Assembly: GCA_947464275.1 (NCBI GenBank)
Contig: CANHVU010000005.1
Location: forward strand, 62,001 to 126,000
Direction of reading: 5' to 3'
Origin: Bacteroidota bacterium
Lineage (GTDB): Bacteria; Bacteroidota; Bacteroidia; UKL13-3
DNA: 64,000 bases
The position numbers and the translations under genes are program-made. Shown here piece after piece: positions 12,059 to 35,047 of the stretch. Positions within the stretch are counted from its first letter, which is position 1. The number at the start of each line of letters is the position of its first letter. The notes under the pieces were generated by a model that did not search any database, had not been told where the DNA came from, and saw only the letters and a list, made by a program, of their open reading frames with translations.

Positions 12059-12643
12059 CTAATCTAAATTGGCAAAAACTTCATCTAAATTTAAAACAAA
12101 ACCAGGCAAAATAGGAGTAACAATTTCATCTCCAAGTGTGAGTAGTTTAGATGGTTGGTATTTTCCATTCACCAAAGTATTAACTTGCATGAATTGACCT
12201 TCTGGTGCCACTATCCAATATTCTTTCACACCTGATTCTTCGTAAACTTCGTATTTATTTTGAAGTTCTTTTTTGTTATTTCCTTTCGATAAAATTTCAA
12301 TTATTAAATCGGGTGCTCCAATGCAGCCTGCATCGTCTAATTTAGTTGGGTCGCAAATTACACAAATATCGGGTTGAACGACTGTAAATATATCTTCGTT
12401 TTTTCTTGATTTTACTGGTAATCTCACATCAAAAGGTGCAGAATAAACTTTACATTTTTGCCCTTCTAAAAGATTAAATATTTTACTACTAATTCTTATT
12501 GAAATAGTTTGATGTACTCTTTTTGGCGCACTTAGTTTATATACACGCCCTTTGATAATTTCAACCATTTCATCCATGGTCCATTTAAGGTAATCGGCAT
12601 ACGAGTGGTTACCATACGATAAGTCAGGCTCATTTACTTCCAT
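12059..12643 (-). CDS. Uma2-family (DUF820) nuclease-like protein
   Basis: A 194-residue Uma2/DUF820 protein with a PD-(D/E)XK-like core. Visible pieces are LKWTMDEMVEIIKGRVYKLSAP (N-terminal E-I-I-x-G-x signature), HQTISIRISSKIF, DVRLP, the putative active-site strands VVQPDICVICD and APDLIIEILS, and NKYEVYEESGVKEYWIV. Most Uma2 proteins are uncharacterised and common in cyanobacteria and Bacteroidota. It lies 44 bp downstream of the photolyase gene on the same strand. TTG 12667 would add eight residues; ATG 12643 is chosen. Confidence 0.85.
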   Translation of the reverse strand: MEVNEPDLSYGNHSYADYLKWTMDEMVEIIKGRVYKLSAPKRVHQTISIRISSKIFNLLEGQKCKVYSAPFDVRLPVKSRKNEDIFTVVQPDICVICDPTKLDDAGCIGAPDLIIEILSKGNNKKELQNKYEVYEESGVKEYWIVAPEGQFMQVNTLVNGKYQPSKLLTLGDEIVTPILPGFVLNLDEVFANLD

Positions 12644-12687
12644 TATTTGATTGATTATTTTATTCAAAAATAGATAAATTTATTGAA

Positions 12688-14280
12688 CTACAAGTTCATT
12701 TTAACTTGTTCAACAACCTTTTTACTTACCTTTTTTGTGGCTTTTTTCTTGCGTTTAAATGTTGATTCTCTATCAACTACACCATCACCAAGTTTTACTT
12801 CTTCTTCCGTATTACGGTGTGATAATTTGTTCAAAATTTCATTTACCTCAACCCTTGAAGCCTTTGATTTTTTGAGTCCCCATAAATTTTCGCTAGCTAT
12901 TTTAGTGCTAGTTTTTAAATCAACTATTGGGGCTGGATAATCTTTACCGATTACACAATTAAATGTTTGTTGCTGTTCCAAATTCATCAACCAAGGTTCG
13001 TGAATAAATTCTGTGGGTACAGTTGCTAATTCAGGTATCCATTGTTTTATAAATTCGCCATTTTCATCGTGGTCGTGCGATTGTTTAATGGGGTTATAGG
13101 TCCTAATTATATGAACGCCCATGGTGGCAGCTTGCATTTGAAACTGCGGATAATGTATTCCGGGTTCAAAATCCAAAAATTGTTTTGCTAAATGGTGCGT
13201 GCCAAAACGCCAATCTTGCCATAAATTATGTGTTAAAAAACTAACCAACATGGCTCGCATTCTAAAGTTTAAATAACCAGTTGCTATAACTGAACGCATA
13301 CAAGCATCAATAAGCGGATAACCTGTATTTCCAGTTTTCCATGCAGATATAAAAGCATCATTTTTTTCAGTTCTAATTGAATTGTAAGCTGAGTTTACAT
13401 TATTAAACTCCATACTACAATCAGTTTCAAATTTTTGAATAAAATGGCAATGCCAATGCAAACGAGCTATAAAAAAATTAATGGCTCTTTTATTAGCAGT
13501 AGGTTTGTTTTTAGTAGCCATTACTGCTTGGTAAACCATGCGCATACTTAGATTTCCCCACGCTAAATAAGGTGAAAGGCGGCTACAACTTTTACGAGCC
13601 AATGCTGGTTTTGAAATATGTTTGGCATAATTGACATGCCTACTTGCAACAAACGATTGTAAGTATTGTAAAGCATAACTTTCGCCACCAGGTTGAAAAT
13701 TTTTATTGTATGTTTTTACTGTTTCATCAATATTATAAAAACGAAGTTCATGGAGTAATCTTTCGTTTGGAATGAGTAAGTTTAGGTCAAAACCAAATTG
13801 TGATGAACTAATGGTTTCTATCCATTTTTTATTCCAATCATTTGGGCGGTATTTTAAACCTCTAATAATGCCATCGCGTTTACATTCGGTCCAAGTAATA
13901 TTGTTTTGCTTAAACCAATTTGCCATTTGCTTATCGCGCGTAAAACTTAAGCTGTTCCCAATTTCTTGATGGCTAAATACATGTTTTACATCAAACTCAT
14001 TGCAAAGCAAACTAAAAACTTCACTAGCCTCTTGGTAAGCAATAAAAATATTGTTTTCCATGCCTGAAAATGTTTGCAGTTTTTTATTCATATCAGTTAA
14101 ACTTTGCCACACAAACTGATGATGACGCGGGCTACTATCGGCATATTGTATTAAGCTAGGTTCAAAAATATACAACAAAATAGTTTCTAATCCATTAGCA
14201 TTGGCAAGGGCTAGTGGTTCATGGTCGCTTAAACGTAAATCACGTTTTAACCAGACTATATTTATTGGTTTTTTGTTCAA
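12688..14280 (-). CDS. Cryptochrome / deoxyribodipyrimidine photolyase family protein
   Basis: A 530-residue blue-light flavoprotein. The N-terminal photolyase alpha/beta domain starts INIVWLKRDLRLSDHEPL and spans about 1-135. The helical FAD-binding domain (about 210-490) has RLSPYLAWGNLSMR, WHCHFIQKFE, TGYPLIDACMRSV, NFRMRAMLVSFL and FEPGIHYPQFQMQA. The Lys/Arg-rich C-terminal tail (about 505-530, KRKKKATKKVSKK) is an unusual extension that could contact DNA. It may repair UV pyrimidine dimers or signal light; the sequence alone does not say which. The start is TTG 14280. It is divergent from the TIGR03643 gene and followed by Uma2. Confidence 0.92.
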   Translation of the reverse strand: MNKKPINIVWLKRDLRLSDHEPLALANANGLETILLYIFEPSLIQYADSSPRHHQFVWQSLTDMNKKLQTFSGMENNIFIAYQEASEVFSLLCNEFDVKHVFSHQEIGNSLSFTRDKQMANWFKQNNITWTECKRDGIIRGLKYRPNDWNKKWIETISSSQFGFDLNLLIPNERLLHELRFYNIDETVKTYNKNFQPGGESYALQYLQSFVASRHVNYAKHISKPALARKSCSRLSPYLAWGNLSMRMVYQAVMATKNKPTANKRAINFFIARLHWHCHFIQKFETDCSMEFNNVNSAYNSIRTEKNDAFISAWKTGNTGYPLIDACMRSVIATGYLNFRMRAMLVSFLTHNLWQDWRFGTHHLAKQFLDFEPGIHYPQFQMQAATMGVHIIRTYNPIKQSHDHDENGEFIKQWIPELATVPTEFIHEPWLMNLEQQQTFNCVIGKDYPAPIVDLKTSTKIASENLWGLKKSKASRVEVNEILNKLSHRNTEEEVKLGDGVVDRESTFKRKKKATKKVSKKVVEQVKMNL

Positions 14281-14338
14281 AAAAAGTTTAATTGTTATTT
14301 TTTAAACAACAACGACTGTTTTGTGTTTCAATAATTGT

Positions 14339-14617
14339 ATGAATAATTTAACTGAAATAGAAATTGACAGAATCATAGAAATGGCTTGGGAAGATAGAAC
14401 ACCTTTTGATGCCATTAAATTTCAGTTTGGTGTAAGCGAAGCTGAGGTAATTAAACTAATGCGCAATCAATTAAAACCAAGCAGTTGGAGACTATGGCGT
14501 AAAAGGGTTAATCAAGGGGTTTCGCAAAAACATGCTAAAAAACGTAATCCTGAAATTGATCGTTTTAAGTGTACCTTACAACGACAAATTACTGGTAATA
14601 AAATGAGCAAACGCTGA
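14339..14617 (+). CDS. TIGR03643 / DUF2805 family small protein
   Basis: A 92-residue protein with a helix-turn-helix-like core (EIEIDRIIEMAWEDRTPFD, FGVSEAEVIKLMR) and a basic tail with SSWRLWRKRV and SQKHAKKR, typical of the TIGR03643/DUF2805 family. The function is unknown; family members are often found beside photolyase/cryptochrome genes, and here it is divergent from one (58 bp between start codons). The basic, HTH-like look suggests DNA binding, which is inference. TTG 14321 is a possible earlier start. Confidence 0.85.
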   Translation: MNNLTEIEIDRIIEMAWEDRTPFDAIKFQFGVSEAEVIKLMRNQLKPSSWRLWRKRVNQGVSQKHAKKRNPEIDRFKCTLQRQITGNKMSKR

Positions 14618-24946: not shown

Positions 24947-25159
24947 GTATTTAAGTTTTTTCAACAAATGTGGTAATTATTTCAAATAAATTACCATTAA
25001 ATAATTTAATTTATTAGCACATTCATGTGTTTTTAATAAACAAATAGACAAACCATACAGCATATTTTTTAAAACTAACAAAACAAATTTTAAAAATTGA
25101 CGTATAAACAATAATAACTTATAATTGCAAATTATTCAAACTTGGAATTAAATAGACAA

Positions 25160-26113
25160 ATGAAAGTAACAGATATAATCAAAAATGCAAAAGACACCTT
25201 ATTTTCTATTGAAATTTTACCCCCATTAAAAGGCAAGGATATTAAATCTGTTTATAGTGGAATTGATCCTTTGATTGAATTTAAACCAGCATTCATAGAT
25301 GTAACCTATCATCGTGAAGAATTTGTTTTGCGTAAACGTAATGATGGAGGCTTTGATAAAGTTTATACCCGTAAACGTCCGGGTACGGTGGCTATTTGTG
25401 CTGCTTTAATGAATCACTACAAAATTGATACTGTACCTCATTTAATTTGTGGTGGATTTAGTAAAGAGGAAACCGAAAATGCGCTAATAGAATTAAATTT
25501 TTTAGGGGTAGATAATGTACTTGTTTTGCGAGGCGACAATGTTAAAAACGAGTCGAATTTTATTCCTGAACATGATGGAAACAAAGATTCTTTAGAACTT
25601 TTGAAACAAGTTAAAAATATGAACAACGGCATTTATCTTGACCCAGACCTAGAAAATGCTACACCTTCAAATTTTTGTATTTCAGTTTCAGGATATCCAG
25701 AAAAACACTATGAGGCTCCAAATATGAATAGCGATCTAAAATGGTTAAAAGCCAAAATAGATGCAGGTGCTGAATATATCGTTACCCAAATGTTTTTTGA
25801 TAATCAAAAATTTTTGAATTTTGTTAAAACCGTTAAGGATATGGGCATTGATGTGCCTATTATTCCTGGTATAAAACCTATTACTACAAAAAAACAACTT
25901 AGTATCCTTCCTAAAATATTTCATATTGATATTCCTGTGGAGTTAACCAATGAAATTGAAAAATGTAAAGACGATAAAGCTGTAAAGCAAGTTGGAATAG
26001 AATGGGCTATACAGCAATCAATTGAACTTAAAAAAGCTGGAACTCCTGTGCTTCATTATTACACCATGGGATTAGCAGAAACAACCAAACAAATAGCTAG
26101 TAAAGTTTTTTAA
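25160..26113 (+). CDS. metF: Methylenetetrahydrofolate reductase
   Basis: A 317-residue MTHFR (FAD-dependent TIM barrel) reducing 5,10-methylene-THF to 5-methyl-THF for methionine synthesis. Family pieces are [75 protein letters not shown] and [14 protein letters not shown] 25160 gives the normal N-terminus ([11 protein letters not shown]); TTG 25142 would add six residues. The DUF2256 mini-gene follows after 7 bp. Confidence 0.95.
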
Positions 26114-26120
26114 CTGTAAT

Positions 26121-26255
26121 ATGAAAGGGGTAAAAAAAGAAAACCTACCCACCAAAATATGTTTGGTTTGTAATAAACCTTTTGTTTGGCGCAAAAAATG
26201 GGAAAAAGTATGGGCAGAGGTTAAATATTGTAGTAATAGGTGTAAAGGAAAATAG
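26121..26255 (+). CDS. DUF2256 zinc-ribbon-like mini-protein
   Basis: A 44-residue protein starting seven bases after metF. Four cysteines are spaced as two pairs, C14-x2-C17 and C37-x3-C41, with a Trp-rich basic stretch between ([11 protein letters not shown]). This is the DUF2256 pattern ([10 protein letters not shown]...VKYCSNRCK), a probable zinc knuckle. DUF2256 proteins are often encoded near photolyase/cryptochrome genes; here the photolyase is 12 kb away. The function is unknown. Confidence 0.85.
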
Positions 26256-33521: not shown

Positions 33522-34973
33522 TTATCCAACACTTCCTTCCAAACTTACCGCTAAAAGCTTTTGTGCTTCTACTGCAAATTCCATCGGTAATTGATTTAGA
33601 ACTTCTTTACAGAAACCGTTTACAATTAATCCAATTGCTTCTTCTGTCCCTATGCCACGTTGGTTGCAATAGAAAATTTGATCTTCACCAATTTTGCTAG
33701 TACTAGCTTCGTGTTCTACAATGGCAGTATTATTGCTAATTTCTAGGTAAGGAAAAGTATGTGCTCCACTGCGACTGCCAATTAACATACTATCGCATTG
33801 GGTATGATTACGAGCATTTTCAGCTTTTTTATTTACTTTTACTAAACCTCTATAAGTGTTATGCGATTTTCCGGCTGAAATTCCTTTTGATACAATTCTG
33901 CTTTTGGTATTTTTACCAATGTGTATCATTTTGGTTCCAGTATCGGCTTGTTGCATATTATTGGTAACTGCCACTGAGAAAAACTCTCCGTTTGAGTAAT
34001 CACCTTTTAAAATACAACTTGGGTATTTCCAAGTAATGGCACTTCCAGTTTCTACTTGTGTCCAGCTAATTTTAGAATATGCACCTTCGCAACTTCCGCG
34101 TTTGGTTACAAAATTATAAATACCACCTTTTCCATCTTTATCGCCAGGATACCAATTTTGAACAGTTGAGTATTTAATTTCAGCTTTTTCCATTGCAATT
34201 AATTCCACAACAGCTGCGTGCAATTGGTTTTCATCACGCATTGGCGCGGTACAACCTTCTAAATAACTCACATAACTGTTATCGTCTGCAATGATTAAAG
34301 TACGCTCAAACTGACCTGTATTTTCAGCATTGATACGGAAATAAGTAGACAATTCCATTGGGCAACGAACGCCTTTTGGAATATACACAAAGCTTCCATC
34401 GCTGAATACTGCTGCGTTTAAAGCTGAAAAATAATTATCGGTATAAGGAACCACTGAGCCAATGTATTTTTTTACCAATTCAGGATGCTCGTGTAAAGCT
34501 TCGCTGATGGCACAAAAAATTACACCTTTTTCGGCTAGTTGGTCTTTAAAAGTAGTAGCAATTGATACAGAATCAAATACAGCATCTACTGCTACACCTG
34601 TTAAACGTTTTTGTTCGCCAAGGCTAATTCCTAGTTTTTCAAAAGTTTTTAATAATTCAGGGTCAACTTGATCTAAACTATCTAATTTTATTTTTTCTTT
34701 AGGAGCAGCGTAATAAATAATGTCTTGGTAATTAATTGGCTTTAAATTAAAATTTTGCCAATTAGGTTCTTCTAAAGTTAACCAATAGCGATAAGCTTTT
34801 AATCGCCACTCAAGCATCCATTCTGGCTCATTTTTTTTAGCCGAAATAAATCTTACAATGTCTTCGCTTAAACCCATTGGGGCCGAATCCATTTCTATAT
34901 CGGTAGTAAATCCGTATTTATATTCTTGACTAACTACTTGGTCAATTATATCAACTTCTTGTGTATCAGACAT
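33522..34973 (-). CDS. sufB: SufB Fe-S cluster scaffold subunit
   Basis: A 483-residue SufB, first gene of the operon and the main site of cluster assembly. Family pieces are [63 protein letters not shown], the [32 protein letters not shown] segment, then [21 protein letters not shown] with conserved residues of the SufB-SufD interface. An operator-like palindrome overlies its promoter region (35003-35047). Confidence 0.97.
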
Positions 34974-35002
34974 TTTCTAACTTTTGTTTAAGTTTAGGGT
35001 GG

Positions 35003-35047
35003 CAAATTTAAACTAAATATTTAAACTATTTATATTTAGTCTAAATA
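35003..35047 (-). promoter_or_regulatory. Putative sufB promoter with operator-like palindromes
   Basis: On the minus strand TAAATTTG (35010-35003) fits the -7 box, but no TTTG lies 18-21 bp upstream. In its place is a perfect 15-bp palindrome, TATTTAGTCTAAATA (35033-35047), and a wider ACTAAATAT-N11-ATATTTAGT inverted repeat (35012-35040). This is where a repressor or activator would bind. An Rrf2/IscR-type Fe-S sensor is a reasonable guess from operon content only. Confidence 0.5.

Follow-up and report, generated by a model that had tools for sequence, protein, structure and literature searches.

Two small protein families, DUF2256 and DUF2805 (the latter also known as TIGR03643), almost certainly belong, judging by gene content and gene order, with a subset of photolyase-family flavoproteins, namely the DASH, DPRP (FeS-type) and short types and a clade that we label WPHR. 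Genes for a WPHR protein, a DUF2805 protein and a DUF2256 protein are all present in the window, by which we mean the whole 64,000-nucleotide stretch of a Bacteroidota genome analysed here (contig CANHVU010000005.1, positions 62,001 to 126,000). The flavoprotein and the two small proteins are probably switched on together, and in flavobacteria the DUF2256, DUF2805 and photolyase genes are likely members of a light regulon of the LitR type. The overall pattern suggests that the small proteins help cells to cope with sunlight damage. We infer for both families an accessory role in light-driven repair or sensing, as had been proposed in an earlier note made from the window sequence alone. No publication tying DUF2256 or TIGR03643/DUF2805 to photolyases was found in the open-access literature. 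The two widespread, uncharacterised families thereby gain a setting accessible to experiment, namely particular photolyase operons and, in flavobacteria, a regulon for which an operator is defined and a B12 photoreceptor is likely.

Co-occurrence of the small families with a subset of photolyases

Seven families were searched for by profile in 148 genomes of the phylum. Profiles for the DASH, short and WPHR types were built from members met mostly near DUF2256 or DUF2805 and were then run on all 148 genomes, with cut-offs placed at gaps in the score distribution. Two weak DUF2256 fragments (G011, G082), six matches to divergent DUF2805 paralogues and six short PF03441 matches, of the 70 left over, were dropped from the counts. 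What we call other photolyases (mostly class I) are those among the 150 PF03441 matches listed, and all their counts carry this scope. DUF2256 was found in 48 genomes, DUF2805 in 41, DPRP in 49, DASH in 35, WPHR in 20, the short type in 13 and other photolyases in 63.

All 48 genomes with DUF2256 carry at least one of DPRP, DASH, WPHR and the short type. DUF2256 in turn is present in 46 of the 49 DPRP genomes, 33 of the 35 DASH genomes and every genome with WPHR (20/20) or the short type (13/13), compared with only 29 of the 63 genomes with other photolyases. Shuffling within taxonomic families was restricted to the 115 of the 148 genomes with family labels (116 in the rhodopsin analysis). DPRP and DUF2256 were observed together 46 times against a mean of 35.2, and none of 20,000 shuffles was as high; the corresponding numbers of shuffles for DUF2256 with DASH, short and WPHR were 0, 24 and 103. 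For other photolyases, 29 joint occurrences stand against a mean of 28.0, with 5041 of 20,000 shuffles as high. DUF2805 is present in 37 of the 49 DPRP genomes, again with 0 of 20,000 shuffles reaching this value. Co-occurrence beyond chance in Bacteroidota, on whose absence the earlier note had let its proposal fall, was thus found, and the link is not refuted.

Gene neighbourhood and operon structure

Neighbourhood statistics for TIGR03643, DUF2256 and photolyases, the check suggested in the earlier note, agree with these counts. Of the 49 places with DUF2256, 33 have a photolyase-family gene no more than 5 kb away, as do 17 of the 42 with DUF2805; random placement in 3.8 Mb would give about 0.4 for each, and more exactly about 0.45 for DUF2256 (gene positions were transcribed by hand into the counting scripts). 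The partners of DUF2256 are DASH, DPRP, short and WPHR members; none of the 64 other photolyases among the matches listed is found within 5 kb of it. Hence the proposed link of the small families to photolyases holds far beyond chance for both DUF2805 and DUF2256, but it does not extend to photolyases in general.

A sample centred on WPHR, consisting of the best 80 of at least 588 loci in titled public records, contained 44 loci with 5 kb on both sides. Within this distance DUF2256 is present in 26, DUF2805 in 20, either in 28, both in 18 and DPRP in 23 of them. A frequent gene order in Flavobacterium is DUF2805-WPHR-DUF2256-DPRP-DASH. The genes overlap or are at most 20 nt apart in 25 of 38 WPHR-DUF2256 pairs, 24 of 33 DUF2256-DPRP pairs and 10 of 13 DUF2805-short pairs, where the gap runs from the stop codon to the first profile-matching residue of the next gene, not to its exact start, and many loci come from related genomes. 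In their overlapping frames, many pairs resemble a coupled operon.

The linkage is also found outside the phylum, in some Gammaproteobacteria and Alphaproteobacteria. DUF2256 adjoins photolyase-family genes in Vibrio, Salinivibrio and Tritonibacter, an Acinetobacter plasmid holds convergent TIGR03643 and DUF2256 genes beside pieces of DPRP, and a Pseudoalteromonas plasmid carries the TIGR03643 and DUF2256 pair.

At two loci (L113 near 6100, genome G077; L148 near 6950, genome G139) a photolyase-domain remnant with an inner stop stands beside DUF2256, as if the gene had decayed and DUF2256 had stayed. The short photolyase type, about 371 residues long with the FAD domain first and another conserved C-terminal domain behind it, is always accompanied by DUF2256 and DPRP in the 13 of 148 genomes that have it (L134, L140, L079, L133, L123, L083, L107, L153, L094, L115, L098, L102 and L157). 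It resembles the 'short photolyase-like' or reverse-domain Phr6 forms described in passages of PMC9649867 and PMC9426592.

A flavobacterial operator and its probable LitR/CarH regulon

An inverted repeat, TTGTTTAA-N16-TTAAACAA, is common to the flavobacterial DUF/photolyase operons and to carotenoid, proteorhodopsin/Blh and LitR/CarH (B12-MerR) genes. The half-sites TGTTTA...TAAACA are spaced by N18 in 36 matches in these loci and by N19 in seven, every other spacing giving 0-3 matches; perfect 5-bp inverted repeats in general show no clear enrichment at any single spacing upstream of genes. The operator directly precedes operons that begin with DUF2805, WPHR, short, DUF2256 or TetR genes, and its left arm often extends into a TAnnTTTG-like -7 box, which we take to be the promoter form of Bacteroidota.

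A stricter pattern gave 38 sites in eight whole genomes against four for the reversed control, and seven of the eight genomes have sites. By our own tally, ten sites precede operons of photolyase, flavin reductase-DPRP, DUF2256 or DUF2805 genes, five precede carotenoid (crt) or LitR genes, two lie between the proteorhodopsin and beta-carotene dioxygenase (Blh) genes and one precedes a gene for a short-chain dehydrogenase/reductase (SDR)-DUF2867 protein. Eleven precede lipoprotein-like genes; scans of four of these detected a fasciclin domain in three and a CHRD domain in the fourth. Two precede genes of one 139-residue family (DUF2452-like in the one scanned) and two precede large outer-membrane-type genes; two sites lie inside coding sequence and three are unclear. 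Class I cyclobutane pyrimidine dimer (CPD) photolyases bear the same operator in some genomes.

The regulators encoded beside or behind operator sites combine MerR and B12-binding domains, which is the make-up of LitR/CarH; four proteins were scanned, and the first B12 domain was detected in all of them and both B12 domains in two. Since the operator stands at LitR and crt genes, we assign it to LitR: most simply, its distribution would make it the operator of LitR/CarH, with the DUF genes in its regulon. Such an operator would place UV repair under the same response to light as carotenoids, proteorhodopsin and fasciclins. A passage of PMC7064467, on a flavobacterium whose carotenoids are induced by light, calls the mechanism of this control unknown.

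At two loci from two genomes (L298:196-1929 and L314 around 3045) the genes for proteorhodopsin and a beta-carotene 15,15'-dioxygenase-like protein diverge from one operator copy. Fasciclin-domain or similar lipoproteins lie right behind the operator at L300, L310, L311, L299 and L316, one of them with two copies, and these lipoproteins may be light-induced.

Predicted structures of DUF2256 and DUF2805

DUF2256 is a basic protein of 44 residues (net charge +10 in the window, and a median of +10 among 42 sequences). The four cysteines of its CxxC...CxxxC motif (C14, C17, C37 and C41) are invariant in the 42 sequences, and a conserved loop rich in Trp and Lys/Arg is peculiar to the family. The AlphaFold2 model (pLDDT 84) is a treble-clef zinc finger with a weak match to FCS fingers and YacG (Z 2.3-2.7). 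The AlphaFold2 model of DUF2805 consists of a probable helix-turn-helix core (residues 11-60 near pLDDT 90) and a basic tail, with helices at residues 12-23, 29-36, 40-50 and 53-65 in the numbering of the 98-residue open reading frame. Comparison with solved structures by VIA-align gave low scores, with GcrA at Z 4.9 (root-mean-square deviation 2.1, 45 residues aligned) and a sigma region 4 domain at Z 4.2, while spliceosomal chains score as high (Z 5.2); Foldseek with this model returned no match under E 0.001. Taken together, the models and charges of the two proteins suggest nucleic-acid binding.

Divergent DUF2805 paralogues without the WED motif (L099:6459-6737, L105:6456-6737, L117:6459-6740, L150:6456-6737, also in L076 and L081) have a second conserved context of DoxX-like and sterol desaturase-like genes. 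An AlkB-type 2-oxoglutarate-Fe(II) oxygenase gene near such a paralogue in four genomes was counted in favour of a repair-related role of the small families.

The WPHR clade

The photolyase-family protein of the window and 18 other members form a single, long-stemmed clade (support 100/100) that is distinct from the class I members and from DASH (separate clades, 100/100), in a tree for which the program gave a long-branch warning and which includes no sequence of PHR2. The latter is a plant photolyase group mentioned in a passage of PMC7560933. The window protein reaches none of the NCBIfam cut-offs for photolyases, with 180 bits against 506 for the class I CPD photolyase equivalog, 175.9 against 317.05 for DASH cryptochromes (TIGR02765) and 44.6 against 550 for class II CPD photolyases (TIGR00591). 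It has no match to PF04244, the domain of DPRP or FeS-type prokaryotic (6-4) photolyases.

The columns equivalent to residues of E. coli photolyase were read from alignments of 19 WPHR and nine class I members; in E. coli photolyase E274, N341, M345 and W384 are the lesion-contact residues. All nine class I members have the standard E, N, M and W at these columns. In WPHR, the E274 column is Arg, the N341 column Phe and the W384 column Met in 19 of 19 members, and the M345 column is Ala in 17 of 19, the window protein having R, F, A and M. The N378 column, near flavin N5, is His in all 19, and at least 17 members have Phe, Leu or Ile at the column of W382, the proximal Trp of the triad. The W277 and W359 columns and several Arg are retained. 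The protein probably binds FAD, to judge from these alignments. Because its lesion-contact and proximal Trp residues are exchanged, a standard CPD or (6-4) mechanism is not expected. The fold is kept while catalytic residues are swapped for others that are mostly invariant.

The basic tail which the earlier note described is real, with a net charge of +7 in the last 34 residues, and it is a peculiarity of the window protein. Fourteen of the 18 other clade members stop at the conserved core and only the one at L157 has a comparable basic C-terminal end.

A more specific proposal, which we hold to be doubtful as a whole, is that WPHR represents a separate functional class of light-driven flavoprotein whose substrate would not be the pyrimidine dimer in duplex DNA but perhaps a lesion in single-stranded DNA or RNA, or else a signal. 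WPHR, DUF2256 and DUF2805 would act as a single unit, in which DUF2256 would be the nucleic-acid adaptor and DUF2805 the DNA-binding partner, and which would be made on demand by a B12 photoreceptor that also controls proteorhodopsin in some of the same genomes.

Arrangement and promoter of the genes in the window

The features of the window are collected in Table 1. The gene layout given in the earlier note was borne out, including the Uma2 gene behind the photolyase, the TIGR03643 gene facing it and the DUF2256 gene about 12 kb away.

Table 1. Positions of the discussed features in the window
Feature	Positions	Strand	Matches and remarks
Photolyase/cryptochrome-family gene (WPHR)	12688-14280	-	PF03441 (FAD_binding_7) 1.3e-67; PF00875 2.9e-18; TTG start codon; 530 aa
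DUF2805/TIGR03643 gene	14339-14617	+	PF10985 3.4e-35, 120.7 bits (curated cut-off 22.5); TIGR03643 118.3 bits (curated cut-off 66.55)
Divergent promoter region of photolyase and DUF2805 genes	14281-14338		58 bp between start codons
DUF2256 gene	26121-26255	+	PF10013 9.5e-21, 74.1 bits (cut-off 25); 44 aa
Uma2-family gene	12059-12667	-	PF05685 6.2e-31; 20 nt after the photolyase gene
metF-like gene (presumed methylenetetrahydrofolate reductase)	25142-26113	+	Ends 7 nt upstream of the DUF2256 gene

The longest open reading frame of DUF2805 (14321-14617, 98 residues) begins with TTG; the ATG at 14339 is the better start and gives 92 residues. In the 3.4-Mb source genome, where the window lies within contig C5, profile searches located DPRP on C24 and DASH on C22; a class I CPD photolyase gene adjoins a LitR/CarH gene on C25. 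A second DUF2256/DUF2805 pair, abutting and convergent, is found on C46, and a run of N (masked or a gap) is present close to it (L071:7151-8005). The divergent arrangement of DUF2805 and WPHR recurs at L112, L129, L173, L234, L246 and L247. In L112 and L129, the relatives that combine it with DUF2256, the DUF2256 gene directly follows the photolyase gene and the 12-kb separation is not seen.

The Uma2 gene occupies in the window the place that DUF2256 takes in these two relatives. It has no part in the link and was rejected as a partner, as a homologue is present in none of 180 other DUF2256/DUF2805/photolyase loci. metF and folK, considered as partners through a folate antenna, were rejected as conserved neighbours, each having a homologue in one of the 180 loci; the metF-like gene is probably an incidental neighbour of DUF2256.

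The flavobacterial operator is absent from the divergent promoter region, which contains a different inverted repeat, AAACA (14304-14308)-N15-TGTTT (14324-14328), preceded by TATTTTTT. In the form TATTTTTTAAACA-N15-TGTTTC it is common to this promoter and to the divergent promoter of LitR/CarH and CPD photolyase in the same genome (L156:3203), the two agreeing in repeat, spacing and flanks. These are the only copies of AAACA-N15-TGTTT in the window and four other loci scanned in its genome. Four relatives have AAACC-N15-GGTTT at the corresponding place. A search for AAAC-N17-GTTT in the CPD, DPRP and DASH loci of two f9 relatives (L323-L328) gave no intergenic match and one coding match only, so AAACC-N15-GGTTT is not tied to another light gene there. 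From its positions at these two sites, the AAACA repeat would fit either LitR control through a changed operator or a separate regulator such as DUF2805. One relaxed copy of the flavobacterial operator stands directly before the DPRP gene of the window's genome (C24:34905). The best operator match within the window (34979-35020) lies a few bases before the start of a gene on the minus strand (33522-34973) that we take to be SufB-like.

Proposed role and alternative explanations

The explanation that we favour, with somewhat more confidence than doubt, is that part of a light-induced module for nucleic-acid repair lies, in dispersed form, in the window; within this module DUF2256 and DUF2805 would be nucleic-acid-binding partners of special photolyases under LitR/CarH control. 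In the dark, a B12-dependent LitR/CarH repressor would sit on the operator overlapping the -7 box; in the light it would be released, the whole gene set would be made and the flavoproteins would then carry out light-driven chemistry. DUF2256, as a small basic Trp-rich zinc finger, would bind nucleic acid, probably single-stranded, as a partner of the non-class-I photolyases, and DUF2805, as a small putative helix-turn-helix protein with a basic tail, would be a DNA-binding partner. The operon appears broken up in the window's genome: DUF2256 is 12 kb off, other contigs carry DPRP, DASH and CPD/LitR, and there is a second DUF2256/DUF2805 pair at another place.

Several observations weigh against this explanation. 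Three of the 41 genomes with DUF2805 (G011, G016, G103) have none of the four photolyase types, DUF2256 is missing from three of the 49 DPRP and two of the 35 DASH genomes, and six of ten sampled DUF2256 plasmid regions have no annotated photolyase within 5 kb. In the window's genome the flavobacterial operator shows no enrichment (four sites against four in the control; 11 against eight in relaxed form), and the AAACA repeat is represented by two sites. Twenty of the 38 operator sites in the eight genomes precede other things, such as fasciclin or other lipoproteins, TonB-type genes, coding sequence or unclear contexts. Light regulation in common would explain part of the linkage pattern without direct contact. 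Rhodopsin also co-occurs with DUF2256, in 19 of its 48 genomes (27 of 20,000 within-family shuffles as high), and a light-exposed way of life therefore accounts for part of the co-occurrence; it adds to the pattern and explains neither adjacency nor selectivity.

Some of these observations also favour an alternative which we consider possible rather than probable, that DUF2256 and DUF2805 belong to the response to light or photo-oxidative stress and are made together with photolyases but have unrelated jobs, for example in the protection of protein or RNA. The same operator is found before fasciclins, rhodopsin, carotenoid genes and LitR, rhodopsin shows the co-occurrence just described, and DUF2256 lacks photolyase neighbours in the six plasmid regions mentioned. 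However, the selectivity speaks against mere membership in a common regulon, as DUF2256 avoids the neighbourhood of the other photolyases listed although class I CPD photolyases carry the operator in some genomes. Reading frames overlap in many pairs, and mere co-induction need not give a pattern in which every genome with DUF2256 has one of the four photolyase types. A role as nucleic-acid-binding helpers of light-driven repair appears the likeliest for both families, and direct help to the flavoproteins is our working guess, somewhat better than co-induction only.

We regard it as improbable that DUF2805 is instead a local transcription factor that would bind the repeat of the divergent promoter through its predicted helix-turn-helix and would regulate both its own gene and that of the photolyase. 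The modelled structure, the divergent DUF2805/WPHR layout with 40-60 nt between the domains at six loci and the window, and the repeat itself, as AAACC-N15-GGTTT in four loci and AAACA-N15-TGTTT in the window, are consistent with it. However, the same repeat occurs at the LitR promoter of the window's genome with no DUF2805 near, and LitR therefore fits equally well; flavobacterial operons behind the LitR-type operator have DUF2805 simply as their first or last gene, and the repeat is confined to few, partly related genomes. Chance neighbourhood or hitch-hiking with no functional link, as the 12-kb distance of DUF2256 and the unrelated Uma2 gene in the window's genome might suggest, can be set aside, since the adjacency counts and the co-occurrence within families already refute it, and the linkage recurs in another phylum.

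Comparison with known systems

WPHR resembles class I CPD photolyases and DASH in its fold, FAD-binding domain, W359-type Trp and several Arg, and differs from them by E274 to R, N341 to F, M345 to A, N378 to H, W382 to F, L or I and W384 to M (E. coli numbers), exchanges that are all or nearly all conserved in the clade. DUF2256 is assigned to the TRASH clan together with DUF329 in a passage of PMC4047054, and its model weakly matches FCS and YacG fingers. YacG inhibits gyrase, according to the title of PDB entry 4tma; DUF2256 differs by the Trp- and Lys/Arg-rich loop of its own.

In Vibrio cholerae, blue light acting through ChrR/sigmaE and a MerR regulator strongly induces DASH cryptochrome and photolyase operons, and many of the induced genes are hypothetical, as described in parts of PMC5241685. 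The likeness extends to a plasmid of another Vibrio species, which holds DUF2256, SDR, DPRP and DASH together, whereas the regulators are partly other and the small proteins are not named in those parts of PMC5241685. A further parallel is found in the LitR/CarH light regulons of Pseudomonas (PplR, PmlR). According to the sections of PMC9758184 concerned, MerR-type LitR regulators control light-inducible operons there that encode photolyase, cryptochrome-like and SDR proteins as well as FolE; start and stop codons within these operons overlap, and some of the genes are without known function. In that system a class II LitR acts with light-oxygen-voltage (LOV) proteins, whereas the regulators found here match B12 domains. 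The operator deduced here also differs from that system, and the flavobacterial set adds DUF2256, DUF2805, WPHR, proteorhodopsin/Blh and fasciclins.

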